A stretch of 64,000 nucleotides of DNA. Source: Janthinobacterium sp. PAMC25594. Lineage in GTDB: Bacteria; Pseudomonadota; Gammaproteobacteria; Burkholderiales; Burkholderiaceae_D. A model generated the notes under the pieces. That model saw only the letters and a list, made by a program, of their open reading frames with translations, made no database searches and was not told the origin of the DNA. The stretch lies in contig NZ_CP080377.1 in NCBI RefSeq assembly GCF_019443505.1, positions 5,952,001-6,016,000 of the forward strand. The letters are read 5' to 3'. Positions 36,712-55,015 of the stretch are shown in pieces; position 1 is the stretch's first letter, and each line of letters begins with the position of its first letter. The translations under genes and the position numbers were made by a program.

Positions 36712-36870
36712 TGTGGCAAGGACTCTTAACTGTGCCAAGCGGGGCCATAGATCGTTGCACAAAGCTGTATCAATAGCGTCGTGAGCTGCAACAGGTTTCT
36801 GCAACGGGCAAGGGTATCATTCCCTTACTTAGCCGTGGCGCAGGCCTTAGCGTACTATTTTCCTATGTGC

Positions 36871-37383
36871 TTACGGTTGTTGGTCAACGAGCATACGAGA
36901 AAGTTTTTCCCGCGCGCGGGTATCTTTTTCAGGATCAGCTTCGAGGTCGCTCAAGAACCAGACTATTGCTGCAGCAAATGCGCTTCCTAACCATTCCAGG
37001 GATAAAGTCAGAACAGTCGGATCATTCGAACCGACTTGGCCATAATTGGAAGCATATAAAATTCGACGCGCATAGCCTTTTCGGAAGTCATTCGATTCCG
37101 CTACGCCAGTGTGCAATACCCCGCATCGGGCACCCCAAAGATCCGCGGCGGTCGCGCCGGAAAGGAGTTCTGGATTTTTTTCGACCATGTATTGCTGTAC
37201 CCAGGCTTTGAAGCCTTCGTTGCCGACCGTTTCCTTGTCACCTGCTACCCAGGCTAATTGGTCTATAGCAGCGAAAAGTAAAACAAGCGTGGCTTGTTTG
37301 TATCCTTTCTCGCGAAGACATGCAATTGCCTCTGACTGACGCATGCCAAAGTCCATCACAGGGTGTAGATTCGATATTCCCAT
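36871..37383 (-). CDS. Hypothetical protein with a HEPN-like RxxxxH motif
   Basis: A 170-aa helical protein. It contains QATLVLLFAAIDQLAWVAG, FKAWVQQYM and WGARCGVLHTG; the last gives R-x4-H, the signature of HEPN ribonucleases in toxins and phage-defence systems, in the usual place near the centre of a helical bundle. AGGA lies 5 bases before ATG 37383. No antitoxin partner is adjacent. Codon use is closer to the host than that of the lanthipeptide genes. The nuclease role is inference. Confidence 0.65.
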   Translation of the reverse strand: MGISNLHPVMDFGMRQSEAIACLREKGYKQATLVLLFAAIDQLAWVAGDKETVGNEGFKAWVQQYMVEKNPELLSGATAADLWGARCGVLHTGVAESNDFRKGYARRILYASNYGQVGSNDPTVLTLSLEWLGSAFAAAIVWFLSDLEADPEKDTRAREKLSRMLVDQQP

Positions 37384-37968
37384 TTTTCCTGGTCGGTGAT
37401 TTTTTCTCGGTACTACGTGGAAAAAGAAACTTTATTAGTGGGGCCTTGAATTCAAGCGCTTACCGGCCCCGCCCAGTTCGTGGGCAGGGCGTAAATCCTT
37501 GAACCGCAGCTTTTCTGAGCATCTCTTTGATACACAATTTTATTATATTCTTGAATGACAGTCTCGAACAGAAAGACGAATTGTTTTTTCGATGGTCGGA
37601 GGGATAGTGGGGCCACGGCAGCACGTCGTTGCGTATTTCGATACCTGCCACATCCGCAGGTGCGAACGGCAGCTTCCTCCCCCGTAAGCGCCGTTCAGGT
37701 TTTTCGCCCCAATGACAGCAGTGCAGCGACGGCAGACGATCGATTTCGCAAGCAGACGACAAGCTCTGTCCATGGAATGAGATTTACCGCTGTTAGCGAA
37801 GCGTTCTTCCAAAGCGGACGTCCGGGCCAATAAACTAGGTTCAGTCAAAAGGGCAGGCCGGCTCATCAAAGAGCATTCAATGCGCGATTAGCTGCGCGTC
37901 GTTCAGTTGATCCACGCTAAATGCGTACTCTTTCAAGCCCGGAATAGCTGGGCAAAACAGCGTGCTAA
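37384..37968. other. Gap without a supported gene
   Basis: A mixed-composition stretch between the HEPN-like gene and an IS element. Short ORFs on both strands show no recognisable family. It may contain degraded mobile DNA. Confidence 0.4.
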
Positions 37969-38004
37969 AGTGGATCCATCAGTCAAGACACTTTGCCGAC
38001 TAAT

Positions 38005-38970
38005 TTAAGCTGTATCTGTTTCCGCTGCTTCAGCTGCTCGGCGCTGACCCGTATTGCTCTTTTCCTGTGACTTCTTCTTGTCGTCACCAAACCTGTCGAC
38101 GATCAGGGCACCGCCGCCGATCCCGTCGCGGTAGACTTGGTCGGGCGTCTGGTAGCCCAGCGACTGGTGAGGTCGCTCGGCGTTATAGAACGCGAAGTAC
38201 TGCGCCAGGCCCACCATCAATTCCGCCATGTTGGCGTACCCCTTCAGGTACACATCCTCGTACTTCACGTTGCGCCACAGCCGCTCGACGAAGATGTTGT
38301 CCAGCGCCCGACCGCGCCCGTCCATGCTGATGGTCACGCCTTCGCGTTTGAGCACGTCGGTAATGGCCGTGCTGGTGAACTGCGAACCCTGATCGCTGTT
38401 GAACACCTCCGGCTTGCCATGGTGGCGCAAGGCGTCCTCCAGGCAGTCCACGCAGAACGACGCGTCCATTCTGTTGCTGAGGCGCCAGGACAGCACCTTG
38501 CGGCTATACCAGTCAATAATGGCCACCAGATACGCGAAGCCCCGCGCCAACCGGATGTAGGTGATATCGGTCGACCACACCTGGTTAGGGCGCGTCACCG
38601 GCACGCCGCGCAACAGGTACGGATAGACCTTGTGCCGGGGATGCGCACAGCTCGTGTTCGGCCCCGGCGCCATGCCCGCCAACCCCATGCCGCGCATCAG
38701 GCGCTGCACGCGCTTGCGGTTGACCACATGGCCCGCCGCGCGCAGGAACACGACCATGCGCCTGCTGCCATAAAAAGGCCGGCTCGTGTATTGCTCGTCA
38801 ATCAGCGCGCTCAGCTTCAGGTCGCTCTCGTCCTCGCATGCCTGCCGGGATGCCGCATCGATCCGGCGGTACACGGTCGCGCGTGGCACGCTTGCCAGCT
38901 CGCATTGACGCGTCAGCGGCAGCTTCTCGTGCCCGGCTTCGATCCAGCCCAAGCGCGCCTCCTGGCTCAC
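38005..38970 (-). CDS. IS3-family transposase OrfB (DDE integrase)
   Basis: The 321-aa catalytic subunit. It has an N-terminal HTH_21 region and an rve-type DDE core: the first Asp in VWSTDITYIRL, the second in VFNSDQGSQFTS and the Glu in DNIFVERLWRNVKYE. GTG 38970 overlaps orfA by 4 bases. A run of eight A on the minus strand (38980-38987) lies at the end of orfA and would allow the -1 frameshift that makes the fused OrfAB transposase. Confidence 0.92.
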   Translation of the reverse strand: MSQEARLGWIEAGHEKLPLTRQCELASVPRATVYRRIDAASRQACEDESDLKLSALIDEQYTSRPFYGSRRMVVFLRAAGHVVNRKRVQRLMRGMGLAGMAPGPNTSCAHPRHKVYPYLLRGVPVTRPNQVWSTDITYIRLARGFAYLVAIIDWYSRKVLSWRLSNRMDASFCVDCLEDALRHHGKPEVFNSDQGSQFTSTAITDVLKREGVTISMDGRGRALDNIFVERLWRNVKYEDVYLKGYANMAELMVGLAQYFAFYNAERPHQSLGYQTPDQVYRDGIGGGALIVDRFGDDKKKSQEKSNTGQRRAAEAAETDTA

Positions 38971-39275
38971 GGCCCCAGCTTTTTTTTAAGCCAGTCCACT
39001 TCCATCTTCAGCCGACCGATCTCGCCGTACAGCTTGTCCTCGGGGCTGCTTTCATCGATCGGCTTGGGGCCGCGCTTGGTGTCGAACAGCGCGTCGGCGT
39101 TCTCCAGGATTTCCTTTTTCCACTGCCCCACCAGCACCGGATGCACGTCGAACTCTTGCGCGATCTCCGTCACCGTCTTGACGCCGCGAACGGCCTCCAG
39201 ACCGACCTTGGCCTTGAACTCGGCCGTGTGTACCCGGCGTTTTTTACCTTCACTCATTTGCTGCCATCCTTTCAC
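38967..39275 (-). CDS. IS3-family transposase OrfA (helix-turn-helix)
   Basis: The 102-aa DNA-binding subunit: HTAEFKAKVGLEAVRGVKTV and IAQEFDVHPVLVGQWKKEIL form the HTH_8-type domain, and RLKMEVDWLKKKL the leucine-zipper end where the frameshift into orfB occurs. Confidence 0.92.
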   Translation of the reverse strand: MKGWQQMSEGKKRRVHTAEFKAKVGLEAVRGVKTVTEIAQEFDVHPVLVGQWKKEILENADALFDTKRGPKPIDESSPEDKLYGEIGRLKMEVDWLKKKLGP

Positions 39276-39316
39276 GGACCACAGCTTAAACCATCGTCTC
39301 AGATTCGGGATCCACT

Positions 39317-39659
39317 ATACGGCCCTGCTCGACAATCACACACGCTGCGCGCTCGATTGCGCATTTCAGATGTTGCTGGTGCTAAATTGCGGGCTTCGTT
39401 ACCCCGCGACTATGTCCCTAGTCGGGAAATCGGTCCCGTTAAAACAGAGATATTTTTGAGCGAGATGGTTCTCTGATTGAACAAAATCTGTGTGTAAAGA
39501 GCACGCGTCAATAAACTTGATGTATCGACTGTAGCGTCACGCTAGCTGTTTTTGGAGCAGTGGATCTGTGACCAACAATGACTGGCGCTAGCAGAGGCGA
39601 AATTTACTTAGCAAGCGCCATATTAGTCATTAGATCAACTTAGAAATTGACGAAAATTA
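39317..39659. other. Gap between IS element and lanthipeptide cluster
   Basis: Composition falls from GC-rich (to about 39440) to AT-rich. I see no supported gene; a short hairpin (TAGCG/CGCTA, ~39531-39543) is too weak to call as a terminator for the precursor gene at 39660. Confidence 0.4.
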
Positions 39660-39896
39660 TCAGTCACCCGTATTGGGACAACATTTTCTTGAATCCGTGA
39701 CAATACATCCCGCCATTGATGGGCTTGGGCACTGCTCACTTGCACAGACGCATTCGCTCGCTTGAGTCTTTTTTGGATCTTTAACTGGCGGTTCGACCGG
39801 ATCCTCGTCACCATCCTCGCTCGCACCACCAACCATGGTCAGTTCACTCATCGACAACGTACGGAGTGTGCGCTTATTTAACTCAATTTTGTACAT
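39660..39896 (-). CDS. Lanthipeptide precursor peptide 1
   Basis: A 78-aa precursor starting at ATG 39896 (a longer in-frame ORF has no leader-like extension). The leader IELNKRTLRTLSMSELTM-VGG matches precursor 2 almost exactly and ends in GG, the cutting site of C39 peptidases. After GG comes an acidic Pro-rich spacer (ASEDGDEDPVEPP), then a core with six Cys and several Ser/Thr (SECVCASEQC, SMAGC, RKCCPNTGD). Ser/Thr dehydrated by LanB and joined to Cys by LanC would give several rings. It is transcribed away from precursor 2, alone on the minus strand. Confidence 0.88.
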   Translation of the reverse strand: MYKIELNKRTLRTLSMSELTMVGGASEDGDEDPVEPPVKDPKKTQASECVCASEQCPSPSMAGCIVTDSRKCCPNTGD

Positions 39897-40523
39897 TTTA
39901 GCCTTATAAAATTTTGTTTTTTTCAAAAACTTCAAATTAAATAATAAAAAGTCATCATGTGAAATTTTTTGTGGCCAGAACTTGAAAGCTATCTGTTCCA
40001 AAAATTACTAACACCGGACGCTACAATATCATAAAAATAACAAAATGCAAAAAATCAGTAATTATATATTTGAAAAGATTGTCTATTAACAAACTTTGCT
40101 TCTGATGATAAGGGTAGCCTAGAAAAATCTGCACTACACAAAGGCTGAAGTATTTTCCTGAAAGTAAGCAAAGTGATATACAAAATTTATAATTGTTGTT
40201 ATAGTATGTATCCAGTGACGAAATTTCGATAAATTTTCAACAGTAAATCAAAAAATTGAGATGCAGTAAGAATTACTGATTTTCGTCATCTGACTGAGTA
40301 GGCACAACCGCCAAAAATTCTTAGTCATTCCCATAGCTATGCCAAAATTCATTTGAAGACTCTGTTAATAGAGACCAATTAACCATATTATTTTATTTAC
40401 ATTTTTAAGAAAAATGTATACCATCCGCATTCCGTTAATTTAAAGCGGAAAATGGGGTCAAGTATCGATTTAAAATAGAAAATCGGTATTGACTTTTTGA
40501 AAAATGTGATATGGGAATGAAAA
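39897..40523. promoter_or_regulatory. Divergent control region of the lanthipeptide cluster
   Basis: A very AT-rich 627-base gap between the two divergent precursor genes. It must hold both promoters. It contains an inverted repeat TCCG...CGGA around AATTTAAAG (~40433-40449) close to precursor 2. I cannot assign -35/-10 boxes safely. No gene is seen. AT-rich DNA here is a likely target of the island's H-NS homologue. Confidence 0.5.
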
Positions 40524-40778
40524 ATGGAAAAAATTGAATTGAACAAACGGACGCTCCGTACATTGTCAATGAGTGAGCTGACAATGATCGGCGGGGCGAG
40601 CGAAGACGGTGACGAGGAACCTGCGCAACCGATTGACAATGGTGATCAGAATGCAGCCACCAAGACCAAGCCTGCTCCTCCGTATACAACTAATTGTCCA
40701 ACTTCGAAATGCCCGTTAGCATCGGAAATCTGTCCGCCTACGAACGATCGTAAATGTTGCCCTAACACCGGTTCATAA
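40524..40778 (+). CDS. Lanthipeptide precursor peptide 2
   Basis: An 84-aa precursor. The leader IELNKRTLRTLSMSELTM-IGG differs from precursor 1 by one conservative change, then ASEDGDEEPAQP and a core with five Cys (TTNCPTSKC, ASEIC, RKCCPNTGS) and many Thr/Ser. The last eight residues before the end, RKCCPNTG, are the same in both peptides, so that ring is probably essential, while the middle varies. The two differing cores suggest a two-component product. Followed by a strong hairpin, then lanC. Confidence 0.9.
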   Translation: MEKIELNKRTLRTLSMSELTMIGGASEDGDEEPAQPIDNGDQNAATKTKPAPPYTTNCPTSKCPLASEICPPTNDRKCCPNTGS

Positions 40779-40790
40779 CAGACTGGATGG

Positions 40791-40830
40791 TACTGCCGGA
40801 TCGGTAAAATTCCAATCCGGCAGTATTTTT
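40791..40830 (+). terminator. Hairpin terminator/attenuator between precursor 2 and lanC
   Basis: A perfect 11-bp stem (TACTGCCGGAT with ATCCGGCAGTA) with a 13-base loop is followed by five T. It lies between the precursor gene and the modification genes on the same strand. A partial terminator here is known in lantibiotic operons, where it keeps precursor mRNA in excess; that role is inferred. Confidence 0.85.
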
Positions 40831-40879
40831 AATAATGCAGATGAGTAAGCAAAAATATATTTTGGAAAAATTGAAGTAA

Positions 40880-42025
40880 ATGAAGATCGACCATTACCTG
40901 TTAGAAAAAAAGTGCTTTATCGAACTACTGTCAAGACCAAAAAATGTGTGTTTAGCTGACGGTGTTGCTGGAGCTCTCTTACTTGAGTCACAACTTTATT
41001 CTCAAGCTCCCTCTAAGGAGCGACGTGAAAATATTGTTAAAGTAATTAATATTCTAATTCATTCCATTCAATTCGAACCATTGGAGATCGGTCTCTGGAT
41101 AGGTCTTACGGGGATTCTGTATTCAATCGAGTTTACAAGATCGATCTGCCCGGAATTAGTGTCCCCAGAAGTTCAAACATTTGTTTCGGAAATGGACGAA
41201 CATTTAATAAATTACTTAGACAGCAGGAAAAACGATCTAAATTTTGATCTAATTAGTGGAACAGTAGGCATCGGCGCATATGCATTGATGCGTACGGACA
41301 TAATTGCAGCTCGACGAATTTACAGTTCTGTAGAAAGATCTCTAATTACTTCCTCCGAACATGTGGGAAATGGACGTATCTGGCGTTCAAACATGCCTCG
41401 ATCATCGTTGGCTTTCACTCCCGGTATTACACGGATAGATTTAGGGTTAGCTCATGGGCTTCCTGGTGTAGTTTTATTGATGGCCGGCGCTGTAAAGCAC
41501 ACTCTAGCGACAGAAATTACACAGAATGTTTTGCAAGAAGCAGTCGTCGCCTTGATTGGATATCAAGCCGAACAGAAAAATGGCTCCAAATACCCCTACT
41601 TCGATCCTCAACACGAATGGGCTGGAAGTAGACTAGGGTGGTGTTACGGTGATCTGGGAGTAGGTTTTGCTATCGCATCTGCCGGATCGGCCACTTCCAA
41701 TCAGTCGTGGATAAATTTTGGAAAAGAATTGGTGGAGCAAAGAATATCACAACCCACTTCAACTTTCCTTATCAGTGACAATTCTCTGTGTCATGGACGA
41801 TCAGGAGTACTGCATATATTGAAAAAGCTTAAGCAATATTTTTCTATAGAAGATTATACTTTCGTAGCAGAATGGATTGCACATGATACCGAAAAAGATA
41901 GTGTTAATGATAGTTTGGCCTCATATGGTTTATTAGAGGGAATGACGGGCGTTCTAATAAGTCTCTATGACAACTCAAGTCAAGAGCGGCAACATTGGGA
42001 TACCTGCTTGTGCTTAGGATTTTAA
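40880..42025 (+). CDS. lanC: Lanthionine synthetase LanC
   Basis: The 381-aa cyclase that adds Cys thiols to dehydrated residues. All zinc ligands are visible: Cys255 in GWCYGD and Cys304-His305 in LCHGRSG. The GxxG-type repeats of the alpha/alpha toroid are present (GLWIGLTGILYS, GTVGIGAYAL, GLAHGLPGVVLL, SLASYGLLEGMTGVLIS). The gene is very AT-rich compared with the chromosome. It starts 50 bases after the hairpin and is followed 43 bases on by lanB. Confidence 0.93.
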   Translation: MKIDHYLLEKKCFIELLSRPKNVCLADGVAGALLLESQLYSQAPSKERRENIVKVINILIHSIQFEPLEIGLWIGLTGILYSIEFTRSICPELVSPEVQTFVSEMDEHLINYLDSRKNDLNFDLISGTVGIGAYALMRTDIIAARRIYSSVERSLITSSEHVGNGRIWRSNMPRSSLAFTPGITRIDLGLAHGLPGVVLLMAGAVKHTLATEITQNVLQEAVVALIGYQAEQKNGSKYPYFDPQHEWAGSRLGWCYGDLGVGFAIASAGSATSNQSWINFGKELVEQRISQPTSTFLISDNSLCHGRSGVLHILKKLKQYFSIEDYTFVAEWIAHDTEKDSVNDSLASYGLLEGMTGVLISLYDNSSQERQHWDTCLCLGF

Positions 42026-42068
42026 TTAATACAAAAATACACAATATATAAAATAACCACCAATTCCG

Positions 42069-45000
42069 ATGACAAAATCCGCCAAGTTTTCAAACGACAA
42101 ATTTTTTATATTGCGCTCACCATTCTTGCCAGAAAATACATGGAAAGAGTACAAAGATCATGCGCATTCACTTGAAATTTCGACACCGCTCGACCAATGG
42201 GACGCACGCGCACAGTCGGCGAAAAAACAATTCGCGCATGGTGTCGTGGCTGAAGCGATATTTATTGCAAGCCAAAACTTATACCACCGATTGAGTGAGT
42301 CGACTTGGGAAACAAAAACCGAATCGGGCCGGAAGTTGCTGCTAGCATTTGAACGCTATCTTAACAGGATGTGCTTCCGATCAACTCCATTTGGATTATT
42401 TTCATCAGTGTCACACGGTACTGTCAAAAATACAGAAGAGAAAAGAATATACTCGACGTTTTCTGGAGACTCAACTGGGACGAAAAAAGTACGAATTGAT
42501 GTGGCCTACCTACAAGAACTTCGAAACTATATTTTATTGAAGTTCGGTGAAAAATTCAAATATAGCGCAAACCGCTCAATATGGTATCAGGGAAATAATA
42601 TAAAATTTACGGAATGGATGGACGCGTCTGGCAGTGGCAGAAATTATTCATCGGCAGAGATCGATTATCATCCGATAATAGAGAGCATTATTATTTATTG
42701 CACAAATGAAAAATTTTATGCGAAAGAAATAGCAATTGAAATATCAAAAAATTACAATAGTTATTCGAGCCAAGTGATAGATGCACTAATTAAAGATTTG
42801 ATTGCATCGCAGCTGCTATTACCCGCACTGTCAATTGATCTTTTTTCTCCCAATCCGACAATCCCGTTTTCTGAACACTTATTGAAAATTTCAGAATGTC
42901 GGGAAATTGGAGAAAAATTAATGGAGATAGATCAAGAGATTGCCACTATCTCTTGTGGCGGACTAGAGGCTATTAATATTTATAAAAATATTAATAAAAA
43001 ATTATCAGGGATATTTCCGGTAAAAAAAAATACACCATTGCTTCGAATTGATTGTTTTCGTACTAAACCTGAGTTTTCCCTTAGTGAAGATTATTGCAAA
43101 AAATTGACGGCTGATCTTGAAGAATTGATGATTCGGTTTGCAGAAAAAGATCTTTCATTAAACTCAATTGAACAGACGTTCAAAGAAAAATACGGCAGTA
43201 GCGCAGTTCCTATTTCCGAGATGCTCGATGACTCCGACTTTATCAGTAAATTGGGGAACGTATTTGTTCCTGATTCAATTGGAAAATTTGGCATTAATAG
43301 TAGCGAAAATGCGCAGAACTACTCAAGAAATTATGGTCTGCGTCAGTTTGACCAATTTCTCGTCGAGAGATTGCTGGCAGCACAATCATCTTCTAATAAT
43401 GCAGTGATCAATATCACAAAGGAAGACGTTCTTAAATGGCCAAAACGTGGAAGCAATTTTTGTGAAAACATATTCACCATTATGACCGTATTACCGAAAA
43501 CGGGAGGTGATCTGATTGACACTAAAACATGGTTACAAGGAATTTCTAATTCGGATGTCGGAACATGGGGCGGCAGATTTTGCTACGGCAACGCCGATTT
43601 AGAGAGTTCATTAAGAAATTCAAAATTCAAAGACGATACAAGTTCCGATGCGCCTATTCACGCTGAAATATGTTATATGCCATCTGGAACCATCGGAAAT
43701 GTTCTGAACCGACCGCTCATTTATCCTTATCGAATAAATTTAATAGAGGGAGACATTCAGGACATCAATTTCGAAATAGCGCTTTCAGATCTGTTGATAA
43801 AATTCAACAATGGGGAGATGCAACTTTGGTCGAAAAAAATTGATAAAAGAGTCATACCACATATGACCTCTGCACACAGCCAGGATCACTCGGGAAATAT
43901 TGCGGCGTATTCATTTCTCCGTAGTTTAGAGTCATACTCAAAATATGTCGTATATTTTGGTTGGAGTAATTTTTTTTCCCAGTACTCTTATTTGCCGAGA
44001 ATCGAATATGAAAATATAATACTTGCACCAGCGAGATGGTTAGTTGGGCCAAATGATATCAAGATAAAGAAAACGTCAACCGAGGATGAAAATAAGAAGA
44101 AATTTCGTTCATATTTAGAAGAAATAAAGATAGCAAATAGCGTAGAATTGAAAGAGTTTGATAATACGCTTATTCTAAATTATAAAGATGAGATCGATTT
44201 CGAGCAGATTTATAAAAGCTATAAAAAATTCAGAAAACTAATTTTAAGAGAAGTTGTTGTGCAGGATGAATCAAATTTGGTTCGTCATGAAGTGTTGCTT
44301 CCGATAAAAACACAGACCCTCCTGAAGGATGTCACTGCCGTCGATAATATGGCAGCTAAAAACCGTGTTCAAGCGGACGCAGAAAAAGCGAGAGATTTAG
44401 TACACGCGCCGATGAGTGAGGTAGTTTATGTAAAAATTTACATGAAAGAAAGCAGCATAGATAAGTTCCTGAGCGAAGAATGTGCCGAAATTATCAGTAG
44501 CTGTCGACAACATAAATTAGCAGACGACTGGTTCTTTATTCGTTATGCAGATCCTAAGCCACATATTAGATTAAGAATATTTACAAATACGGTAGGTTCA
44601 ATTTCCAAGATAGTCGAAGCGATTATTGTTAAGCTAGATCAGCTGAACGATCAAAATATGATAGAAAGCTATTGTTTTTCACTGTACGAACGAGAGATCG
44701 CTCGTTATGGCGGAGCTAAATTAATTTCTTTTAGTGAAAAATTATTTAGTTTAGATAGTGATATTGCTATAAATATTATTTCAAAGTCAGATATTTTTCG
44801 CAATCGTCTTGTTGCAGCTGCTTGGTCATGCACATCTTTTTTAAACGATCTTGGTTGTAATCCTGAGGCAGCGTATGCAATTGTAAAAAATAAAGCTGAA
44901 TCTTATCGTTCCGAATTTAGAATCACAAGATGGCAACGAGAATTGATGGGTAAAGACTTCAGAGAAAACTATCGAGAAACTATTTCGACTATCGAGGACG

Positions 45001-45284
45001 GTATTTTTCACTTCGGGGTAGACAAGAAATTAGACGCATTATCAGAGTCAACAAGGGTGCGGCGCAGACTAGTTGTTGAGGACGCCAAAGAAAAATTTGG
45101 ATTCTCATTCTCGAAGCAGGAGTTCCAAAGTATTATTCATAGTCATTTACATATGATATGTATCCGGCTTATTGAAAATAATCCCCGTGCACATGAGGTG
45201 CTGGTTTACGATATTTTAGAGCGAATATATAGAGCTGCGATTGGAAAGGCTAAATCGTCATTTTCATTGCGGGTGCAATCTTGA
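42069..45284 (+). CDS. lanB: Full-length lantibiotic dehydratase LanB
   Basis: A 1071-aa class I dehydratase that activates Ser/Thr with glutamyl-tRNA and eliminates glutamate. The N-terminal glutamylation domain is recognised by RYLNRMCFRSTPFGLFSSVS and later HAEICYMPSGTIGNVLNRP; the C-terminal elimination (SpaB_C) domain by DDWFFIRYADPKPHIRLRIF and YEREIARYGGAKLI. Both domains are in one protein, so this is not a split LanB. Very AT-rich. Its stop overlaps the TTG start of the HlyD-type gene, confirming one operon. Confidence 0.95.
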   Translation: MTKSAKFSNDKFFILRSPFLPENTWKEYKDHAHSLEISTPLDQWDARAQSAKKQFAHGVVAEAIFIASQNLYHRLSESTWETKTESGRKLLLAFERYLNRMCFRSTPFGLFSSVSHGTVKNTEEKRIYSTFSGDSTGTKKVRIDVAYLQELRNYILLKFGEKFKYSANRSIWYQGNNIKFTEWMDASGSGRNYSSAEIDYHPIIESIIIYCTNEKFYAKEIAIEISKNYNSYSSQVIDALIKDLIASQLLLPALSIDLFSPNPTIPFSEHLLKISECREIGEKLMEIDQEIATISCGGLEAINIYKNINKKLSGIFPVKKNTPLLRIDCFRTKPEFSLSEDYCKKLTADLEELMIRFAEKDLSLNSIEQTFKEKYGSSAVPISEMLDDSDFISKLGNVFVPDSIGKFGINSSENAQNYSRNYGLRQFDQFLVERLLAAQSSSNNAVINITKEDVLKWPKRGSNFCENIFTIMTVLPKTGGDLIDTKTWLQGISNSDVGTWGGRFCYGNADLESSLRNSKFKDDTSSDAPIHAEICYMPSGTIGNVLNRPLIYPYRINLIEGDIQDINFEIALSDLLIKFNNGEMQLWSKKIDKRVIPHMTSAHSQDHSGNIAAYSFLRSLESYSKYVVYFGWSNFFSQYSYLPRIEYENIILAPARWLVGPNDIKIKKTSTEDENKKKFRSYLEEIKIANSVELKEFDNTLILNYKDEIDFEQIYKSYKKFRKLILREVVVQDESNLVRHEVLLPIKTQTLLKDVTAVDNMAAKNRVQADAEKARDLVHAPMSEVVYVKIYMKESSIDKFLSEECAEIISSCRQHKLADDWFFIRYADPKPHIRLRIFTNTVGSISKIVEAIIVKLDQLNDQNMIESYCFSLYEREIARYGGAKLISFSEKLFSLDSDIAINIISKSDIFRNRLVAAAWSCTSFLNDLGCNPEAAYAIVKNKAESYRSEFRITRWQRELMGKDFRENYRETISTIEDGIFHFGVDKKLDALSESTRVRRRLVVEDAKEKFGFSFSKQEFQSIIHSHLHMICIRLIENNPRAHEVLVYDILERIYRAAIGKAKSSFSLRVQS

Positions 45285-46543
45285 ACGAATTGTTTCGTAA
45301 AGAGGCTGTTGAGGCACGCAAGCCTAAGTGGCTGGGTGAAATTATCGTTATTCAGCCGCCATCGTCACGGATTGTTAGCATTTTGACGTTAATAATATTA
45401 ACAGCACTATTCTTTCTTTTATTTTTTGGAACGTATACTCGTCGAACAACAGTTCCAGGAAAGCTAATGCCTGTCGAAGGTCTGGTTCAAATTTTCGCTA
45501 TCCAATCTGGTATAGTTGCCGAAAAGAGATTTAAAGAAGGAGAGTTACTGGAAAAGGGACAACCGATGTACCTTATATCTGGAGAAAGAAGAAATGAAGC
45601 TCAGGTTGAATCACAAATGGCGATTAGTCATGAGCTAATGAATAGACAAAAATTTCTGGAAAATGAAATTAATTCTAAGAGCCTAGTTTTGCGCGATTAT
45701 GATCGTAGGATCGGCAGAACTATTTCGAATATCCGGTTAGAGCTACAGAAAGTCGAAGAACAGATTCAAGTCCAAGCCGAGAGAATTGAATTAGAAAACG
45801 CTGCTCTATCAAGATTTCGACAACTTTTTGAGACAGGATATTTTTCAAAAGAACAATGGAGACAAAAACAAGGGGAATATTTGGATCAGAAAAATAGGAT
45901 CAGCGCTCTGGAACGGGAACGTATGATCCTGTTGCGCAATATAGAAGAGAAGAATGATGAGTTAGTAGTTGCAAAAGAAAATAATATTGCCGAGGCTTCT
46001 GTCTTAAGTCGACAGTTATCTTTGAATATTCAGGAATTAGGTGAAAGCGAAGTGCGAAGGATGCAAATAGTGACTGCTCCGGTAGCTGGTATCGCTACGG
46101 CGATTATTGCAAACGTGGGTCAGACTACGAATGGAAATTCACTGATGGCAAGTATCGTTCCTAAGAATTCCAAGCTGGAGGCACGGCTGTATGCACCAAG
46201 TAGTGCGATTGGCTTTATTAAATCCGGAATGATTGTACGTTTGCGCTATGAAGCGTATCCATTCCAGCGATTTGGGCAAGCTATTGGAAAAGTGATTTCT
46301 GTTTCCAGAGCGCCATCAGTGACGTCTGAGTTAAAGGAAATCCAGCGTGAGAATTCTCAAGCATTAATTTCAAATTATGAAATAATAGTTGAGTTGGAAA
46401 AACAAAGCATTTTGGTCGATGGACACAATGTCCCTTTACCACCAGGTATGACATTGCAAGCGGATATTCTAGCAGAGACTCGTAAGTTGTATCAATGGAT
46501 GTTTGTACCATTTGCTGAGCTGAATGCCATTCGTAGTAACTAA
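45281..46543 (+). CDS. HlyD-family periplasmic adaptor for peptide export
   Basis: A 420-aa membrane-fusion protein that joins the C39-ABC exporter to an outer-membrane channel. It has one N-terminal TM helix (IVSILTLIILTALFFLLFFG), a beta/lipoyl half (GIVAEKRFKEGELLEKGQPM), a long helical hairpin (about residues 105-250) and the second half with VTAPVAGIATAIIANVGQ. The start is TTG 45281, overlapping the lanB stop as TTGA. The cluster has no TolC gene, so a host TolC must be used. Confidence 0.92.
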   Translation: MNELFRKEAVEARKPKWLGEIIVIQPPSSRIVSILTLIILTALFFLLFFGTYTRRTTVPGKLMPVEGLVQIFAIQSGIVAEKRFKEGELLEKGQPMYLISGERRNEAQVESQMAISHELMNRQKFLENEINSKSLVLRDYDRRIGRTISNIRLELQKVEEQIQVQAERIELENAALSRFRQLFETGYFSKEQWRQKQGEYLDQKNRISALERERMILLRNIEEKNDELVVAKENNIAEASVLSRQLSLNIQELGESEVRRMQIVTAPVAGIATAIIANVGQTTNGNSLMASIVPKNSKLEARLYAPSSAIGFIKSGMIVRLRYEAYPFQRFGQAIGKVISVSRAPSVTSELKEIQRENSQALISNYEIIVELEKQSILVDGHNVPLPPGMTLQADILAETRKLYQWMFVPFAELNAIRSN

Positions 46544-46587
46544 AGTAGAGTTAGCAATATTAATGTAAATTCAGGTTAATTAAAACG

Positions 46588-48690
46588 ATGTCAATTTTTG
46601 AAAAAATTTCCCTGGGGAAATCCTCTAAAACTCCGCTTATTTTGCAAATCGAAGCTGCTGAATGTGGATTGGCATGTTTGGCAATGATCTCAGGTCACTA
46701 TCAAAATCATTTAGATTTATCCACTATGAGAGGAAAATATACGTTTTCCTTGAAAGGAGCGTCGCTAGCACAGGTGATTCATGTGGCCGAGAAACTTAAA
46801 TTAGGAACACGTCCAGTTCGGTTAGAAATAGAAGATCTTCCAGAGTTACGCCTGCCATGTATTTTACATTGGAACTTTAATCATTTTGTAGTTCTGACAA
46901 ATGTATCGAAAGATCGAATAACGATATTAGATCCAGCATTCGGTGAGCGAATAATAGGTCGGGCCGAAGTTGGCCTTTCATTTACGGGAATCGCATTGGA
47001 GTTATGGCCCAATCCTGAGTTTGAGAAGAAAAATCCGGTTGCTCGCGTGCGTTTGAGGGATCTTATTGGATCAGTGCATGGTTTAGGAAAGTCACTATTT
47101 CAAATTCTACTGCTAGCATTTGCAATTGAAGCTTTTTCGCTAATAAGTCCATTCTTTATGACATGGGTTATAGATGACGTAGTCCTGAGTCATGATAAAT
47201 CTCTTCTGCAAGTTTTGACATTTTCATTTTTAATATTACTTATAATGCAAGTATCTATTAATACCATGCGTTCATGGTTGATAATATTTATGTCCACCTC
47301 TATAAATTTGCACTGGCGATCAAATATTTTTTCACATTTGCTGAAACTACCGATCAATTATTTTGAAAAAAGAACCTTGGGTGATGTTGTTTCTAGGTTC
47401 GAATCCATAGATCAAATACAAAGAACTTTAACCACTTCATTTTTAGAGGCTCTCCTCGATGGAGTAATGGCGACGTTAACACTATTTTTGATGTTTTACT
47501 ATAGCCCTAAAATGGCTTTAGTATCCATATCAACTGCAATTTTGTATGGAATTATTCGATGGATTTGGTTTTATCCTACCCGCATAGCCAATGAAAAACA
47601 GATAATTTGTTCAGCGAAGCAGCACACGCATTTCTTGGAGACCGTTCGTGGAGTAAAAGCGATTAAACTATTTTTAAAAAATGAAGGTAGACGCGCTGCT
47701 TGGCTTACGCTCGTAACAAACGAAATTAATGCCGGCTTACGGCTTCAAAAACTAAATCTATATTTTCGGGTAGTGAATTCGGTTGCATTTGGAGTTGAGA
47801 ATTTATTAGTCGTTGCATTAGGCGCGGTATACGTAATGGAAGGCTCGTTTACGATCGGCATTTTAATTGCTTTCATGGCATATAAAAACCAATTTTTAGG
47901 TCGTGCAAGTTCTCTTATTGACAAGGCGTTGGAGTTCAAAATGTTGCAGGTTTATGGCGAGCGGCTAGGCGATATTGTGCTCACTGAACCTGAGAATTCT
48001 GAAGTTGACGTAGTTTCCTGGCAAGGTATTGAGCTGGTCCCATCCCTCTCTGTGAGAGGTCTCAAATTTAGGTATGGTGAACAGGAACCGTGGATATTGA
48101 ATGGGGTCGATTTTGATGTAGCGTCGGGTGAGTCTGTCGCGATTGTAGGTCCGTCCGGATGTGGAAAATCGACATTGATTAATGTGTTGATAGGAACATC
48201 AACAAATAGTAGAGGAAATATTTATATCGGCGACCAAGATATAAAGAAGGTGGGAGTGAATTCGTTCAGGGAAATCGTTGGCACTGTTCTGCAAGATGAT
48301 GTACTTTTCGCCGGCTCGATCCAAGATAATATCAGTTTTTTTGATCCCGATGCTGACTCAAATTGGATTGAAGAATGCGCAAGTATTGCTGCGGTTTTGG
48401 AAGATATCAAAGCGATGCCTATGGGCTTCAATTCACTTGTGGGAGATATGGGAACGGTTCTTTCTGGTGGTCAGAAACAGCGTGTGTTATTGGCTCGAGC
48501 CTTGTATAAAAGACCAAAAATACTTTTGCTTGATGAAGCTACTAGTCATTTAGACGTCGCCTGTGAGAAAAAAGTGAATTTAGCGATATCTAAATTAAAG
48601 ATGACGAAAATAATTATAGCTCACAGGCCTGAGACAATCGCATCTGCAGACAGAGTATTAGTAATGGAAAATGGAAAGATAAAAATCTAA
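46588..48690 (+). CDS. lanT: C39-peptidase ABC exporter (bacteriocin/lanthipeptide, LanT-like)
   Basis: A 700-aa fused exporter. The N-terminal C39 protease has Gln20, catalytic Cys26 in EAAECGLACLAM, His99 in HWNFNHFVVL and Asp115 in ILDPAFG; it cuts leaders after GG, which both precursors have. Five to six TM helices follow (about residues 170-430), then the ABC domain with Walker A GPSGCGKST, signature LSGGQKQR, Walker B ILLLDEAT and the H-loop IIAHRP. All functional residues seem intact. Use of a C39 exporter with a class I LanB is typical of Gram-negative lanthipeptide clusters. Confidence 0.95.
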   Translation: MSIFEKISLGKSSKTPLILQIEAAECGLACLAMISGHYQNHLDLSTMRGKYTFSLKGASLAQVIHVAEKLKLGTRPVRLEIEDLPELRLPCILHWNFNHFVVLTNVSKDRITILDPAFGERIIGRAEVGLSFTGIALELWPNPEFEKKNPVARVRLRDLIGSVHGLGKSLFQILLLAFAIEAFSLISPFFMTWVIDDVVLSHDKSLLQVLTFSFLILLIMQVSINTMRSWLIIFMSTSINLHWRSNIFSHLLKLPINYFEKRTLGDVVSRFESIDQIQRTLTTSFLEALLDGVMATLTLFLMFYYSPKMALVSISTAILYGIIRWIWFYPTRIANEKQIICSAKQHTHFLETVRGVKAIKLFLKNEGRRAAWLTLVTNEINAGLRLQKLNLYFRVVNSVAFGVENLLVVALGAVYVMEGSFTIGILIAFMAYKNQFLGRASSLIDKALEFKMLQVYGERLGDIVLTEPENSEVDVVSWQGIELVPSLSVRGLKFRYGEQEPWILNGVDFDVASGESVAIVGPSGCGKSTLINVLIGTSTNSRGNIYIGDQDIKKVGVNSFREIVGTVLQDDVLFAGSIQDNISFFDPDADSNWIEECASIAAVLEDIKAMPMGFNSLVGDMGTVLSGGQKQRVLLARALYKRPKILLLDEATSHLDVACEKKVNLAISKLKMTKIIIAHRPETIASADRVLVMENGKIKI

Positions 48691-48724
48691 CAGATTTGTT
48701 TAAATAAATTATAATAGGAATGAT

Positions 48725-49876
48725 ATGTTAAATTTTGGAATGACAAAAGATATTTTCTTCAGTGATTTTTATGAAAAAAAGCCGTTTATAAAACGTGGTG
48801 GATACATTTCTAAGTCTATTGGATGGGATGAGGTAGATAAATGTCTATATATTGCCGAGAGTATCGGGGCAAATCTTAGAGTGCACAAAAATGGATTTGT
48901 TGAAGATTCTGCGTACATGGAGGTTTGTTCAGAGTTGGGATCTGTTAAAAACAAGTTAATAAAAATTAATTTAGCTCAATTACTGGGTGCCGGTGCATCG
49001 ATTATATATAATCGGATGGAGATATCTTCCCTTGAAATCCGATCGCTATGTAATCAGGTATCCCGATTTTCTGGTGCTGAAGCCGTTGCAAACGGATATA
49101 TCTCTTTCGGAGATAAGGAAACATTTGGTAATCATTGGGATACGCACGATGTGTTTGCAGTACAACTGTTGGGACGAAAGCGTTGGTTAGTCTATGAGCC
49201 CACTTTTCCACTTCCGTTGCCCGGCCAAACAAGTTTGAATTGCAAAGGTGATTGTCCTAGTGAGCCAGTAATTGATGAGATTCTTGAGGCTGGGGACATT
49301 TTATATATTCCTAGGGGGTGGTGGCATACGGCTGTTCCTCTTGATGAAGAGACTTTTCATGTTGCAATTGGTACCCATCCACCTAAAATTATTGATTATA
49401 TAAACTGGATTTCGAAAAATTCTCTCCCAGATTTACTGTCTTGTCGAACATCTATCCGATTAGACGATTTTAGTGCTGATAGTATGAAAAATGTAGTGGG
49501 TGATTTAGTTTCTCTTATGTTGGATGCATCCAATATACGAAACTTCCAAGAGAGTGCCGTTAGAAATGAACGATTCTCATCTGATTTTGATATATCCCGG
49601 AATTTTAGAAAGAATTCTTTGTCCGAGGTCAATAATGGAATATATAGTTTGAATTCAAAATTTCGTGGAAATCTCATAAAGTCAGCTGCGACTGTGAATG
49701 GGGTGTTTGTGAAGCAGGAACCGTTGGTTAAAAGCATAATTGAAATGCTGGCAGATTCAGAAGGTTCAATCTCTTTTGATAATTTCTGCTTGAGTAATGA
49801 AAAATATTCAAAACAGGAGGTTAGGATTGCAATTGATGATTTGTTGCATCGTGATATTGTTCAGAAGGTTAATTAA
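48725..49876 (+). CDS. JmjC/cupin Fe(II)/2-oxoglutarate oxygenase (peptide-tailoring)
   Basis: A 383-aa protein of the ribosomal-oxygenase/JmjC cupin type. The iron triad is His137-x-Asp139 in GNHWDTHD and His201 in GWWHTAVPL, within a double-stranded beta-helix that also has VQLLGRKRWLVYEP and DILYIPRGWW. The C-terminal ~120 residues are a winged-helix-like segment, as in ROX proteins. These enzymes hydroxylate side chains; placed between exporter and S41 genes in the lanthipeptide operon, the likely substrate is the precursor peptide (Asp, Asn, Pro or Arg are possible targets). It could instead modify a host protein for immunity. Confidence 0.88.
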   Translation: MLNFGMTKDIFFSDFYEKKPFIKRGGYISKSIGWDEVDKCLYIAESIGANLRVHKNGFVEDSAYMEVCSELGSVKNKLIKINLAQLLGAGASIIYNRMEISSLEIRSLCNQVSRFSGAEAVANGYISFGDKETFGNHWDTHDVFAVQLLGRKRWLVYEPTFPLPLPGQTSLNCKGDCPSEPVIDEILEAGDILYIPRGWWHTAVPLDEETFHVAIGTHPPKIIDYINWISKNSLPDLLSCRTSIRLDDFSADSMKNVVGDLVSLMLDASNIRNFQESAVRNERFSSDFDISRNFRKNSLSEVNNGIYSLNSKFRGNLIKSAATVNGVFVKQEPLVKSIIEMLADSEGSISFDNFCLSNEKYSKQEVRIAIDDLLHRDIVQKVN

Positions 49877-49878
49877 TA

Positions 49879-52128
49879 ATGAATATGGGTTATTCTCTGG
49901 AAAATTATCGTGTTATTAAATTAATAGATAGTAGATTTATTTTATTTATTTTTTCATTTTTTTTTTGCTGTCCGCCTGCTATTTCTGCCAAGTCAGATTT
50001 ACTTGATGTGGCTAGATTATGGCGCGACATAAATTATGGCCATCCTAATCTGGCAGAGGATAGGAGAATCTGGGATGTTTCCTTGATAGATGCAATACCG
50101 AAAATAGCTGCCGCTGATAATTTAACTTCGTTGGAGTCGGGGATTCGATCGCTAATGAAACCTCTTTCGGATCCTGGGGTTCGGGTTGGTTCTGACCTAC
50201 CAGACGAAAGTGATCTTGTGCAACGAAGAGAAAAATTTAAATTGATTGAGTGGATTAACCCGACTACTGCATTAATTAATTTGCATATCGGACACCCGTT
50301 AAGCGAGTCGGAATTTGAAGAAGCATTATTAAATTTGAGAAAATCTAACAATCTAATAGTTGATATTAGACCGTCTTCATATAATGAATTTTCGGTTGAT
50401 AATTTATTGATAAAATTAATTGAAGATTTAATTTCAAAGGAAATAGATATTCCAGCAGAGCAATATCGATTCAGTAGTGGGGAACGACCTATGGTTGACA
50501 ACGTACAGTCTGGTCTTTACGGCGGTGCAATTACATTAGACACTCGCCGTATTTTTCCAAGCGCTTTTGCCAGGAAAAAAAATGTCGTATTTATAGTTAA
50601 TGACGTCGGAATTATACCAAAAGCTCTTATCGCTATGCAAAAGCGCGGCAAAGCTGTTGTTATAGCAGAATTTGATAAGAATTTTCCAAGAGCCGACCCA
50701 GTAGCTACATCCTATATCGGTCCCGTTCGTGTGGAGTATTCTTCAGGACGATTAGTGGATAGGGAGGGGGTCATATCCTTCAAGCCAGACATTATATTGA
50801 AAAAAAATAGAGATGCTGGTAAATCGAGTGTTTCAGTTAAAATTGCGTTACGTTATTTTGGAAAAATTCCATCTCCATATAAATCTCGTGGCGGCCAGTT
50901 ATTTCCAATCGGCACGGAAAGATCTAAATATCTTGCTGCTCCCTATCCATCAATCGAGATACGACAGTTAGCGGCGATAAAGCTCTGGGCAGATATAGAC
51001 CAGTACAGTCCGACAAGGGAAAGTCTCGGAATATCTTGGGACGAGGCGCTGATTCAGTGTTTGAATGAAATGGAGATGGTCAATAGCGAGCTTGATTATG
51101 GAATTGCTCTCCAAAAGATGACTGCAAAAATTGGTGACAGCCATGTGCGCGTATGGAGTAAAGCCTTAAATAAATATTGGGGTCAAGGCGATTTGGGGGT
51201 GCAGTTAAGATTTATTGAAAATTCTGCAATCGTGACTGGATTAGATAATGCCTCATCCGAGGAGAAATCCTTATTTCAGATCGGCGATGAGATACTGGAG
51301 GTCAATGGAATAAAAGTTGAGAGCCAGCTAAAACGTATTTTGCCATTGGTGTCCGGTTCGACGAATGAGCGCCGAATCTTTGATGCATTAGGAAAAATGC
51401 TTAAAGGATCTGTGAATGATAACCTGAAAATTACGATAAAAAGGGGTGTGGAAAAGCGCCAGATTGATTTAAGTAGACGGGAGGTGAAGGATACGTCCAA
51501 TTCCGTGAAGTCCTCCCCTTCCACCGTGCGGTTTCTTTCGGAGACAGTCGCATACGTTGATTTGGCAAAATTAGAAAAAAGAGATGTTGATTCTATGTTT
51601 TCTAATATCGAGAAATCAGATGGTGTTATCTTCGATTTGCGAGGATATCCACTTGGTACCGCTTGGGAAATTGCTCCGCGATTGAATGTGCGTGACACAT
51701 ACGGAGGACCAAATATCTTGCAAAATTTTATTACTGCCTATTCTGGCGTAGAAAAATTAAAAATTGGCTATACTCAAAGTATTAAACGTACTGATAAGTC
51801 TATCTATCAGGGAAAAGTTGTTGTGCTTATTGATGAGGGGACTATTAGTCAAGCTGAACAATCTGCTTTGATGTTTGAGGCAGCAAATCCTGTGACATTT
51901 GTAGGAAGTCGTAGCGCTGGCACAAATGGGGATATCCGACACATTGTGCTTCCCGGGAGCGTAACAGTTTCTTTCTCAGGTTTTGAAGTACGTCATGCGG
52001 ATGGGCGGCAGCTACAGCGTGTCGGGGTCCAACCAAGCATTATTATAAAGCCCACAATAAATGGAATCCGATCTGGGCGTGATGAAGTTTTGGAGGGCGG
52101 CGTGCGATTTCTTCAAACTAGACAATAG
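49879..52128 (+). CDS. Secreted S41 peptidase with two S41-like halves
   Basis: A 749-aa exported protein: signal helix FILFIFSFFFCCPPAISA, then two related halves. The C-terminal half (about residues 355-749) is a full S41 unit with N-domain (KLWADIDQYSPTRESLG), DSHVRVW, PDZ (FQIGDEILEVNGIKV) and catalytic Ser in DEGTISQAEQ followed by GSRSAGTNGD and HADGRQLQRVGVQPSI. The N-terminal half repeats the pattern (RLWRDINYGHPNL, DPGVRVG, VVFIVNDVGIIPKAL, GRLVDREGVISFKPDI) but has no PDZ and no Ser at the nucleophile place. Last gene of the lanthipeptide operon, 2 bases after the oxygenase stop. It may trim the exported peptide or act in self-protection. Confidence 0.88.
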   Translation: MNMGYSLENYRVIKLIDSRFILFIFSFFFCCPPAISAKSDLLDVARLWRDINYGHPNLAEDRRIWDVSLIDAIPKIAAADNLTSLESGIRSLMKPLSDPGVRVGSDLPDESDLVQRREKFKLIEWINPTTALINLHIGHPLSESEFEEALLNLRKSNNLIVDIRPSSYNEFSVDNLLIKLIEDLISKEIDIPAEQYRFSSGERPMVDNVQSGLYGGAITLDTRRIFPSAFARKKNVVFIVNDVGIIPKALIAMQKRGKAVVIAEFDKNFPRADPVATSYIGPVRVEYSSGRLVDREGVISFKPDIILKKNRDAGKSSVSVKIALRYFGKIPSPYKSRGGQLFPIGTERSKYLAAPYPSIEIRQLAAIKLWADIDQYSPTRESLGISWDEALIQCLNEMEMVNSELDYGIALQKMTAKIGDSHVRVWSKALNKYWGQGDLGVQLRFIENSAIVTGLDNASSEEKSLFQIGDEILEVNGIKVESQLKRILPLVSGSTNERRIFDALGKMLKGSVNDNLKITIKRGVEKRQIDLSRREVKDTSNSVKSSPSTVRFLSETVAYVDLAKLEKRDVDSMFSNIEKSDGVIFDLRGYPLGTAWEIAPRLNVRDTYGGPNILQNFITAYSGVEKLKIGYTQSIKRTDKSIYQGKVVVLIDEGTISQAEQSALMFEAANPVTFVGSRSAGTNGDIRHIVLPGSVTVSFSGFEVRHADGRQLQRVGVQPSIIIKPTINGIRSGRDEVLEGGVRFLQTRQ

Positions 52129-52348
52129 AATTTGATTCAATCGCGGTCATTTTTACACAATTGTGATGGTTGTCTGGCCAGGTCTTGCAGACCTTCGGTA
52201 TGCGTTGACTGCTGCGGGGAGTGGTCCAGGGTTCTGTCGCATTGTTGATCAAACGGCGGAATCTTTCTGGGAGATGCGAACCGGCTTCTGGTCATCCACC
52301 AGGCAATGAGTTCCAGTCTCGATATGCCGAAGCAGATCGAGGTCGAGG
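52129..52348. other. Short stretch between the cluster and the next IS
   Basis: Contains GGTTCTGTCGCATTGTTGAT (from ~52229), which looks like an IS terminal repeat plus the start of a transposase reading frame (IS6-like by appearance), so a relic of another IS is probable. No intact gene. Confidence 0.4.
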
Positions 52349-53215
52349 GGTAATCCCCCCATTTTTAACGTGGGCTTTGAGTAGAGGCGATGCGGCAAGT
52401 GCGAGTTTCTGTTTCGGGGTAATACCGCCGATGCCCGTGTTGGGTCGGTCGTGATTGTAAGTCCATAGCCAGCTGGTGGCAAAATCTTGGATCTCTTCGA
52501 GCGAATCAAACAGGGGGTGCGCCAGCCAATCATAGCGCACCGTCCGGTTGTAGCGTTCAACGTAGGCGTTCTGTTGCGGCTGTCCTGGCTGAATAAATTC
52601 GATGTGAATGCCGCGCTTCTTGGCCCAAGCCAGCGTGACTGCGCTGATGTATTCCGGCCCATTGTCGCAGCGAATCATCCGGGGCTAGCCGCGCCATTCG
52701 ATGACCTGGTCGAGCGATCGAACAACGCGCTCGGACGGCAGCGAAAAATCCATGTCGATCACCAAGCCTTCGCGATTAAAATCATCGATCACGTTGAACA
52801 GGCGGATGCTGCGACCATCGCTCAATTGGTCGTGCATGAAGTCCATCGACCAGACCTGATTTATCGCCGTGGGAACAGCTAGAGGCAATGGCCGTTCGCG
52901 CACAAGACGCTTGCGCGGCTTGACGCGCAGGTTCAATTCGAGTATCCGGTAGATCCTGTAGACGCGCTTGTGGTTCCATTGAAAGCCCTTCACATTGCGC
53001 AGATATAGGAAGCACAGGCCGAAGCCCCAGTTGCGCTGATTGGTGGTCAGACGGACCAGCCAGTCTGCGATTACCTCGTTCTTGGCGTTGAGCTTGGCCT
53101 GGTAACGGAAGCAGGTCTGGCTGATGTCAAACGCCAGGCAAGCAAGGCTGATCGCTGCGCGCCCTTGGTCGACTACCCAGCGCGCCATCTCACGACGCTG
53201 AGATGGCGCTACCAC
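52349..53215 (-). pseudogene. IS3-family orfB with a nonsense codon
   Basis: Reads from [18 protein letters not shown] with DDE motifs in [23 protein letters not shown] and NAYVERYNRTVR. A TAG at 52685-52687 interrupts the frame between EWRG and PRMIRCDNG, where related transposases usually have Lys, so one base change explains it. The frame is open before and after. Confidence 0.85.
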
Positions 53216-53419
53216 TTTTTTGCGAGGGCCTCGGCGACGATCTCAGCTTTGAGGCGCTCTTCGGCGTACATCTTCTTCAGGCGCTTGTTCTCTTCCTCCA
53301 ATTCCTTCATACGGGCCATAAGCGAGGCATCCATGCCCCCAAACTTGGCTCGCCACTTGTAGAACGTGGCCGTACTCATGCCGTGTTCGCGGCACAGTTC
53401 TGGGATGGGGGAGCCAGCC

Positions 53420-54873: not shown

Positions 54874-55015
54874 GGAGCCAGCCTCAGCCTGCTTGAGGAT
54901 GGCGATGATCTGGCTGTCGGTGTAACGGGAAGGCTTCATGCAGAACTTTCAAAAAATCATATTTAGAAAATTCTACTCATTCCCACGCTTGTTCGCTGGG
55001 GGGATTACCACCGAA

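Follow-up and report, generated by a model that had tools for sequence, protein, structure and literature searches.

The window analysed here, a 64-kb stretch of the Janthinobacterium sp. PAMC25594 genome (bases 5952001-6016000 of NZ_CP080377.1), contains at positions 39660-52128 a gene cluster whose sequence supports its assignment as a complete class I lanthipeptide cluster, with predicted catalysis and a predicted product. The class is a known one, and what is distinctive is the joining of lanthipeptide machinery to the JmjC-containing export module of microcin loci. We propose with moderate confidence that the cluster represents a rare Oxalobacteraceae lanthipeptide family that combines a microcin-type maturation and export module with a JmjC-modified peptide tag and is carried by a GInt-like genomic island. 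The gene set suggests an enzyme-modified acidic tag on the peptide, by which it would enter rival cells. The host genome is a single contig of 6.55 Mb with one PF05147 match, and the genes of the cluster, with lanA1 on the minus strand and all others on the plus strand, are as follows.

39660..39896, minus strand: lanA1, 78-aa precursor (LanA profile, 131.8 bits)
40524..40778, plus strand: lanA2, 84-aa precursor with a lanA1-like leader, an EDGDE tag and a 5-Cys core
40791..40830, plus strand: terminator-like hairpin and T-run in the lanA2/lanC gap, a possible attenuator
40880..42025, plus strand: LanC cyclase (PF05147, 6e-37; C255/C304/H305)
42069..45284, plus strand: LanB dehydratase, 1071 aa (PF04738, 1.2e-76, and PF14028, 2.4e-48)
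45281..46543, plus strand: HlyD-type adaptor (HlyD_3, 2e-12)
46588..48690, plus strand: C39-peptidase ABC exporter (Peptidase_C39, 3.9e-33, with ABC_membrane and ABC_tran)
48725..49876, plus strand: JmjC oxygenase of the Fe(II)/2-oxoglutarate type (JmjC_2, PF08007, 6.1e-30)
49879..52128, plus strand: S41 peptidase with a PDZ domain (Peptidase_S41, 2.5e-13, and PDZ_2)

The first-pass annotation had called two LanA precursors, LanC with its zinc ligands, a full-length LanB, HlyD, a C39-ABC exporter with intact catalytic residues, JmjC and S41, and all of these were found in place. None of the eight frames contains an internal stop, and hlyD overlaps lanB by 4 bases. LanB is stand-alone and full length, with both the glutamylation and the elimination domain (both Pfam halves), and its residues R100, R104, T106, R834, R836, E876, R879 and H1028 align with NisB positions of known role. 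The LanC zinc ligands C255, C304 and H305 align with NisC and, together with H192, are conserved in the [Empedobacter] haloabium and Massilia terrae relatives. The C39 domain retains C26, H99 and D115, and the JmjC triad H137-x-D139...H201 is invariant in all 16 aligned sequences; the nearest solved folds to the JmjC protein include His and Arg hydroxylases. In the S41 peptidase, H422 and S657 are kept in all four aligned sequences (the window and three homologues), a hydrophobic N-terminal stretch was read by eye as a signal peptide, and the first and second halves weakly resemble each other (BLAST E 0.001). The stretch 40779-40850, between lanA2 and lanC, has a folding energy of -25.6 kcal/mol (z -4.15), a stability reached by 0 of 200 shuffles, and this strong hairpin may allow precursor output to exceed enzyme output.

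The same cluster is present in a second species. In [Empedobacter] haloabium (G315/L036; P0003 and P0069 are its record), which NCBI places in Oxalobacteraceae, LanA, LanC, LanB, HlyD, C39-ABC, JmjC and S41 occur in the order of the window, with leader, tag, JmjC and S41 all shared; the differences are one LanA seen versus two in the window and a GC content of 66% for the 20 kb around the cluster versus 38.7% for the window cluster. Order is kept across 39-68% identity (39% for LanB, 68% for the exporter), and this gene-for-gene recurrence indicates more than chance. The cluster had been described as apparently undescribed. That holds in so far as no report of this cluster, of a JmjC-modified lanthipeptide or of the tail motif described below was found in the open-access literature (subscription papers and supplements lay outside the search), nor any study of the haloabium cluster there; a colinear cluster does stand in a public genome, where its LanB is already annotated 'lantibiotic dehydratase'.

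The lanA1 product consists of the leader MYKIELNKRTLRTLSMSELTMVGG, an ASEDGDEDP tag, a Pro-rich linker and a Cys/Ser/Thr core with 6 Cys; comparison with relatives makes the ATG at 39896, not an upstream TTG, its most likely start. Both precursors have the leader (Y/E)KIELNKRTLRTLSMSELTM(V/I)GG in common and differ in their cores (6 versus 5 Cys after GG). The leader fits IxLxKx5L...GG, with Ile instead of Leu in the first position of the LxLxKx5L...GG type described, along with C39, for Bacteroidetes (PMC7268733). Neither precursor matched Pfam or NCBIfam at E 0.1, and LanA gave no match in 72,556 plasmid records at E 1. Searched against 5.8 billion proteins, lanA2 gave 7 matches, the window's own lanA1 (P0070) included, and the family extends to six relatives besides the window pair. 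P0071 is the precursor of Undibacterium rugosum, whose cluster found no match in 43 genomes from a single low-GC genus, the one to which G361 belongs; P0067 and P0068 share a source and a listed longest contig of 3953 bases, and are likely a second two-precursor locus. Within the family, the LanA profile matches two of 392 genomes, one of them that of the window.

In the alignment of these eight LanA sequences, E27-D28-G29-D30-E31, P33, C78-C79-P80-N81 and G83 are invariant. The site ahead of the EDGDE tag is GG in seven and AG in P0071. EDGDE immediately succeeds the leader and leads into a linker, Pro-rich in several members, an order of tag, linker and core that is the mirror image of the core, linker and tail seen in some microcins. 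In Massilia terrae, where the cluster has no JmjC or S41 match within 23 kb, LanA has the same leader type and no EDGDE-like motif.

Microcin-type precursors encoded beside JmjC genes tend to end in similar acidic-glycine tails (for example LDGDEG, EDGDEGS, RDGDE, NDGDG, ADGTDYHAH, TDGTDYC, EDGGNY). The association was measured automatically, with the same rules for both groups, as DG[DTSCG] within the last 12 residues at 24 JmjC loci (17 with candidate open reading frames (ORFs)) and 19 JmjC-less C39 loci (11 with candidates). The two lanthipeptide clusters, JmjC-less LanB loci, L178 (JmjC cut by the record end) and L164 (a second A. baumannii plasmid) were left out, and L141 and L147, with DGT tails and no standard leader, were not counted. 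The motif occurred in 12/21 candidate ORFs at JmjC loci versus 0/14 at JmjC-less C39 loci (p 6e-4), or by locus in 11/17 versus 0/11 (p 9e-4); among long frames it was present in 9 of 479. In L148 (6171-7480) jmjC is split in two, and the precursor next to it is missing the tail that the close relative L137 retains, a single, suggestive case of tail loss with a broken jmjC. Since a precursor motif tends to follow JmjC across otherwise unlike peptides, it names the likely substrate of the enzyme. The ORFs beside JmjC at L141 (6113-6481) and L147 (7520-7810) have an N-terminal KNP(L/Q)IPGGGL and tails of ADGT(D/A)Y.

The window HlyD, C39 exporter and JmjC correspond to modules of LanB- and LanC-free bacteriocin loci in Acinetobacter, Moraxella, Neisseria and Oxalobacteraceae. 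A tblastn search of plasmid records with JmjC returned relatives of nearly full length from A. baumannii and N. gonorrhoeae and a truncated one from M. catarrhalis pLQ510, all adjoining HlyD and C39-ABC genes. Such a JmjC (E 1e-20) was present in 14 of 392 family genomes; among 17 JmjC loci of the family, HlyD and ABC matches lay nearby in 12 and the C39 part in 8, and no LanB, LanC or S41 match above 45 bits was obtained at any of the 17. At E 1e-40 the JmjC profile matched 1/369 genomes of the class (the window's own) and 6/255 of the order, the window's own included. Another member of this JmjC family (33%; L133:6837-7979, G000:C1:3207843-3208979) is encoded elsewhere in the window genome, near partial HlyD and ABC matches with no C39 part. 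Orthology of the window JmjC to RoxA (YcfD) was considered and is disfavoured, the match to E. coli roxA being 24% over 70% of the query.

Among characterised systems, mcaABCD of Mcc17978 from A. baumannii likewise comprises microcin, cupin-like, HlyD and C39-type exporter genes, and its receptor is Fiu or PiuA, with iron regulation (PMC10333792). Its gene order is that of the A. baumannii plasmid locus on pMC23.1, and it was this plasmid locus, not the ATCC 17978 genes, that was compared with the window (JmjC 30.6%, HlyD 35%, exporter 54%). The Mcc17978-type locus has no LanB, LanC or S41, the pMC23.1 precursor ends in EDGGNY, and the module runs JmjC-HlyD-C39 there versus HlyD-C39-JmjC in the window. 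M. catarrhalis pLQ510, which encodes McbABCI, similarly has HlyD and C39 exporter genes with a cupin gene beside them (PMC2761928); it differs in having no lanthionine enzymes, a cupin gene cut short in the record and a McbC without the tail. Mcc1229 of E. coli (mctABC) requires CirA and TonB, and deletion of its cupin gene mctC abolished activity and could be complemented, with immunity residing in mctDE (PMC8853679). A cupin gene is shared with the window. We infer from gene order and length that mctC is the cupin of plasmid L152, which is distant from the window JmjC (25% over 55% of the query); there, the ABC transporter is by eye without C39 and the precursor is unlike.

Taken by family, the genes suggest a pathway. 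LanB would dehydrate Ser and Thr in the C-terminal core of both precursors, and LanC would close the thioether rings. JmjC may hydroxylate an Asp, or an adjacent residue, of the invariant EDGDE that comes after the GG site. A RiPP (ribosomally synthesized and post-translationally modified peptide) recognition element in the JmjC C-terminal region is at the level of suggestion (PMC12710340). The C39 exporter would cut after GG and secrete the peptide through HlyD and a TolC that would have to be encoded elsewhere, and a cut at that point would make the mature peptide tag, Pro-rich linker and ring core. The tag would probably be recognised by a TonB-type outer-membrane receptor of rival cells, or dock on it in a metal-dependent manner. 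It may be a receptor or metal-binding handle, given that two microcins with cupin genes use catecholate-siderophore receptors and that one of them requires its cupin gene. The S41 peptidase is probably periplasmic and could trim the peptide or destroy re-entering peptide as immunity; the latter is proposed since one-step export bypasses the periplasm.

A wider extension of this pathway, which we consider rather doubtful, is that the JmjC enzymes encoded at Gram-negative bacteriocin loci give a ribosomal peptide a siderophore-like tag, hydroxylating Asp in the acidic-glycine motif for docking on TonB-type iron receptors, as a movable module that is C-terminal in the microcins and N-terminal here. 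β-Hydroxy-Asp is a known iron ligand. We know of no earlier Trojan-horse lanthipeptide, and the siderophore-like reading, if true, would make this family the first.

Several observations weigh against a JmjC-modified tag. The motif is N-terminal in the lanthipeptide and C-terminal in the microcins. Nine of the 21 candidate ORFs at JmjC loci, some of them surely chance ORFs, have no tail, and believable tail-less precursors include McbC, L143, L145, L148 and two of N. gonorrhoeae, those of L143 and L145 ending in SG-type tails; at L133, L138-L140, L144, L146 and L149 a believable precursor could not be picked out. Two of the 12 motif matches have doubtful starts (L142, and L151 7454-7726, which is out of frame with a GG leader), and without them the count is 10/19 versus 0/14 (p 0.0014). 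The pattern was adjusted while loci accumulated, its first form being DG[DTG] with a loose fourth residue [EDN]. The four-letter pattern gives 6/21 versus 0/14 (p 0.06) and the three-letter one 10/21 (p 0.002), and in the four loci fetched after the first pattern DG was present in 4/4, three letters in 2/4 and four letters in 0/4. Related loci make all of these p values optimistic. The LanA of L035, a JmjC-less locus in the same genus, has DGG in a low-complexity run. If the L152 cupin is taken as MctC, MctC is only a distant relative of the window JmjC. The best Fur box upstream of lanA scores 13/19, no better than elsewhere on the AT-rich island; the Fur box reported for Mcc1229 is also 13/19 (PMC8853679).

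JmjC might instead hydroxylate a residue of the ring core, such as the Arg of DRKCC, the Pro after Cys or the Asn of CCPN, with EDGDE acting only as an acidic spacer or an S41 cleavage site, an alternative that we regard as rather improbable. The core has C, P, N and G residues that do not vary and an Arg that is nearly constant (7/8, Leu in P0071), His and Arg hydroxylases are among the nearest folds, and in one RiPP pathway the JmjC enzyme BipG takes a core ornithine as substrate (PMC12707348). Both full tag-bearing clusters have S41 as well as JmjC, which leaves room for the tag to belong to S41 and tells against the tag as JmjC substrate. The JmjC microcin loci speak the other way, with unlike cores, often common acidic-Gly tails and no S41 match. 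It has also been proposed, and counts against modification, that the Mcc17978 cupin is assigned to immunity, mcaB (cupin-like) alone having protected a microcin-sensitive strain (PMC10333792); no other dedicated immunity gene was recognised by eye in the window cluster. An immunity factor that modifies no peptide during biosynthesis is nevertheless unlikely, given the Fe-binding triad and protein-hydroxylase fold and the way the tail motif follows JmjC, and it became slightly more so with the Mcc1229 data, in which activity depends on the cupin gene and immunity comes from mctDE (PMC8853679). The two roles could coexist.

A decayed or silent passenger, giving no lanthionine product or only a dehydrated or disulfide-bonded peptide, has a small chance of being correct. 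The flanking transposase genes and an H-NS-like gene on the island could keep the cluster silent, and the two neighbouring Cys might form a disulfide; against this, all frames are open, conserved residues are in place and gene order has been kept at 39-68% identity. It is very unlikely that this is an ordinary class I cluster that came from Bacteroidota. The first-pass annotation had inferred such a donor from the leader, the S41 subfamily and AT-rich DNA, and the first and last of these clues are real: the leader is of the LxLxKx5L...GG type (PMC7268733), and the cluster has 38.7% GC where the host flanks mostly have 58-70% per kb. The leader is, however, common to the Oxalobacteraceae relatives. 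GC content at third codon positions (GC3) is about 0.69-0.86 in the haloabium cluster genes versus 0.31-0.35 in the window enzyme and transport genes, and with an AT-rich cluster here and a GC-rich homologue there, composition does not identify the donor phylum.

In a LanB tree of 48 rows (40 of 65 search proteins and 8 locus LanBs), built by a quick method with several long branches and uneven composition flagged, the window LanB groups with haloabium, Massilia terrae, a Telluria metagenome-assembled genome and four metagenomic proteins in a clade of 8 rows (SH-aLRT 100) whose three named members are all Oxalobacteraceae. This clade nests in a 12-row clade (96) with four further LanBs from genomes of the same family, and the Bacteroidota LanBs stand apart as part of another 12-row clade (99). 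The S41 search, which scored a candidate set capped at 7997, returned Pseudoduganella violaceinigra (P0075; 38% over 97%, His and Ser kept), one unnamed protein and the window's own, to which haloabium adds another. Against plasmid records, the best 40 of 1066 exporter matches are all Pseudomonadota by name, headed by Paraburkholderia, Acinetobacter, Klebsiella and Moraxella. Because LanB groups with Oxalobacteraceae, the inference of a Bacteroidota donor fails, and with these exporter and S41 relatives and the GC-rich colinear Oxalobacteraceae homologue it was rejected. An AT-rich intermediate host within or near Burkholderiales is possible. The Bacteroidetes class I lanthipeptides remain alike in leader motif, GG site, C39 protease, LanB and LanC; they differ in that the window LanB is of Oxalobacteraceae and in that JmjC and the EDGDE tag go unmentioned in the available sections of that paper (PMC7268733).

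LanB-type genes (PF04738) are not in themselves rare and occur in 30 of 392 family genomes (29 over the cut-off) and in 5 of 40 in the genus. The Massilia terrae cluster contains LanC, LanB, HlyD and C39, with no JmjC or S41 match within 23 kb, and its LanA core (L002:8497) has ALPATQGCLSVNC twice with a Thr-rich stretch between. A different LanB, HlyD and C39 locus with a Gly/Asp-rich, Cys-containing GG precursor is present in a genome of the same genus (L035:11158-14737), with no LanC match before the contig end, and a Cupriavidus oxalaticus megaplasmid (L110:9001-12117) encodes an unannotated LanB with 23% identity to that of the window.

The cluster does lie on a mobile block, as had been noted, and the block is larger than the cluster itself, at about 32311-60699. 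Its features are as follows.

32311..60699, no strand: GInt-like genomic island in a cheW-like gene, 28.4 kb, ends uncertain by a few nt
38005..39275, minus strand: transposase genes beside lanA1 (rve and HTH_21 in 38005-38970), presumably of IS3 type
52292..53463, minus strand: transposase piece, rve-type
53586..54842, plus strand: transposase piece, DDE_Tnp_1
55016..55618, minus strand: ginD-like small gene by position, start uncertain (weak helix-turn-helix, best E 0.017)
55428..57515, minus strand: ginC-like gene by position (weak PF00589 match, E 0.013, below cut-off)
57512..59239, minus strand: ginB-like gene (homologue on pBPHYT01; weak integrase SAM-like match, E 0.039)
59236..60432, minus strand: ginA-like tyrosine recombinase (PF00589, 2.9e-12)

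The site is empty in much of the genus, the flanks being separated by 10-12 bases in 30 of its 39 other genomes and by at most about 50 bases in 6 more, with 3 (G022, G024, G037) unresolved. By the relatives' empty sites, host sequence breaks off with CTTTTCC at 32310 and resumes with (C)TCGGAAGG at about 60699. The island splits a cheW-like gene (PF01584, 3.9e-24 for an uninterrupted copy in a relative); since most relatives have it intact, the host may have lost that CheW. GInts are described as having ginABCD, cargo, an AT-rich end and imperfect attachment (att) repeats of 10-17 nt (PMC5385486). The island resembles them in its three large recombinase-like genes and one small gene at one end, with cargo and an AT-rich other end, and the ginABCD-like genes at the right end fit in order and sizes, with a clear integrase domain in ginA only. 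A same-order four-gene set on Paraburkholderia plasmid pBPHYT01 is annotated integrase, hypothetical, phage integrase and TetR family. The island differs in its cheW target, in the weak domain support for ginB-D and in junction repeats that are about half identical in a 12-nt alignment made by eye, with no chance estimate. Within the island the lanthipeptide genes are bracketed on both sides by transposase genes. The cargo also includes an H-NS-type gene (34260-34622; PF00816, 1.2e-14), which could silence AT-rich cargo, and a tyrosine-recombinase-like ORF (36028-36711; PF00589 at cut-off), perhaps the remnant of an earlier element.

This cluster joins class I lanthipeptides and Gram-negative microcins, which are usually treated apart. 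The proposed role of JmjC makes it testable why a cupin/JmjC gene is present in microcin loci such as mcaABCD and mctABC, and by what route the peptides of these loci get to catecholate receptors. If true, the acidic-glycine segment would be a genetically encoded import tag.

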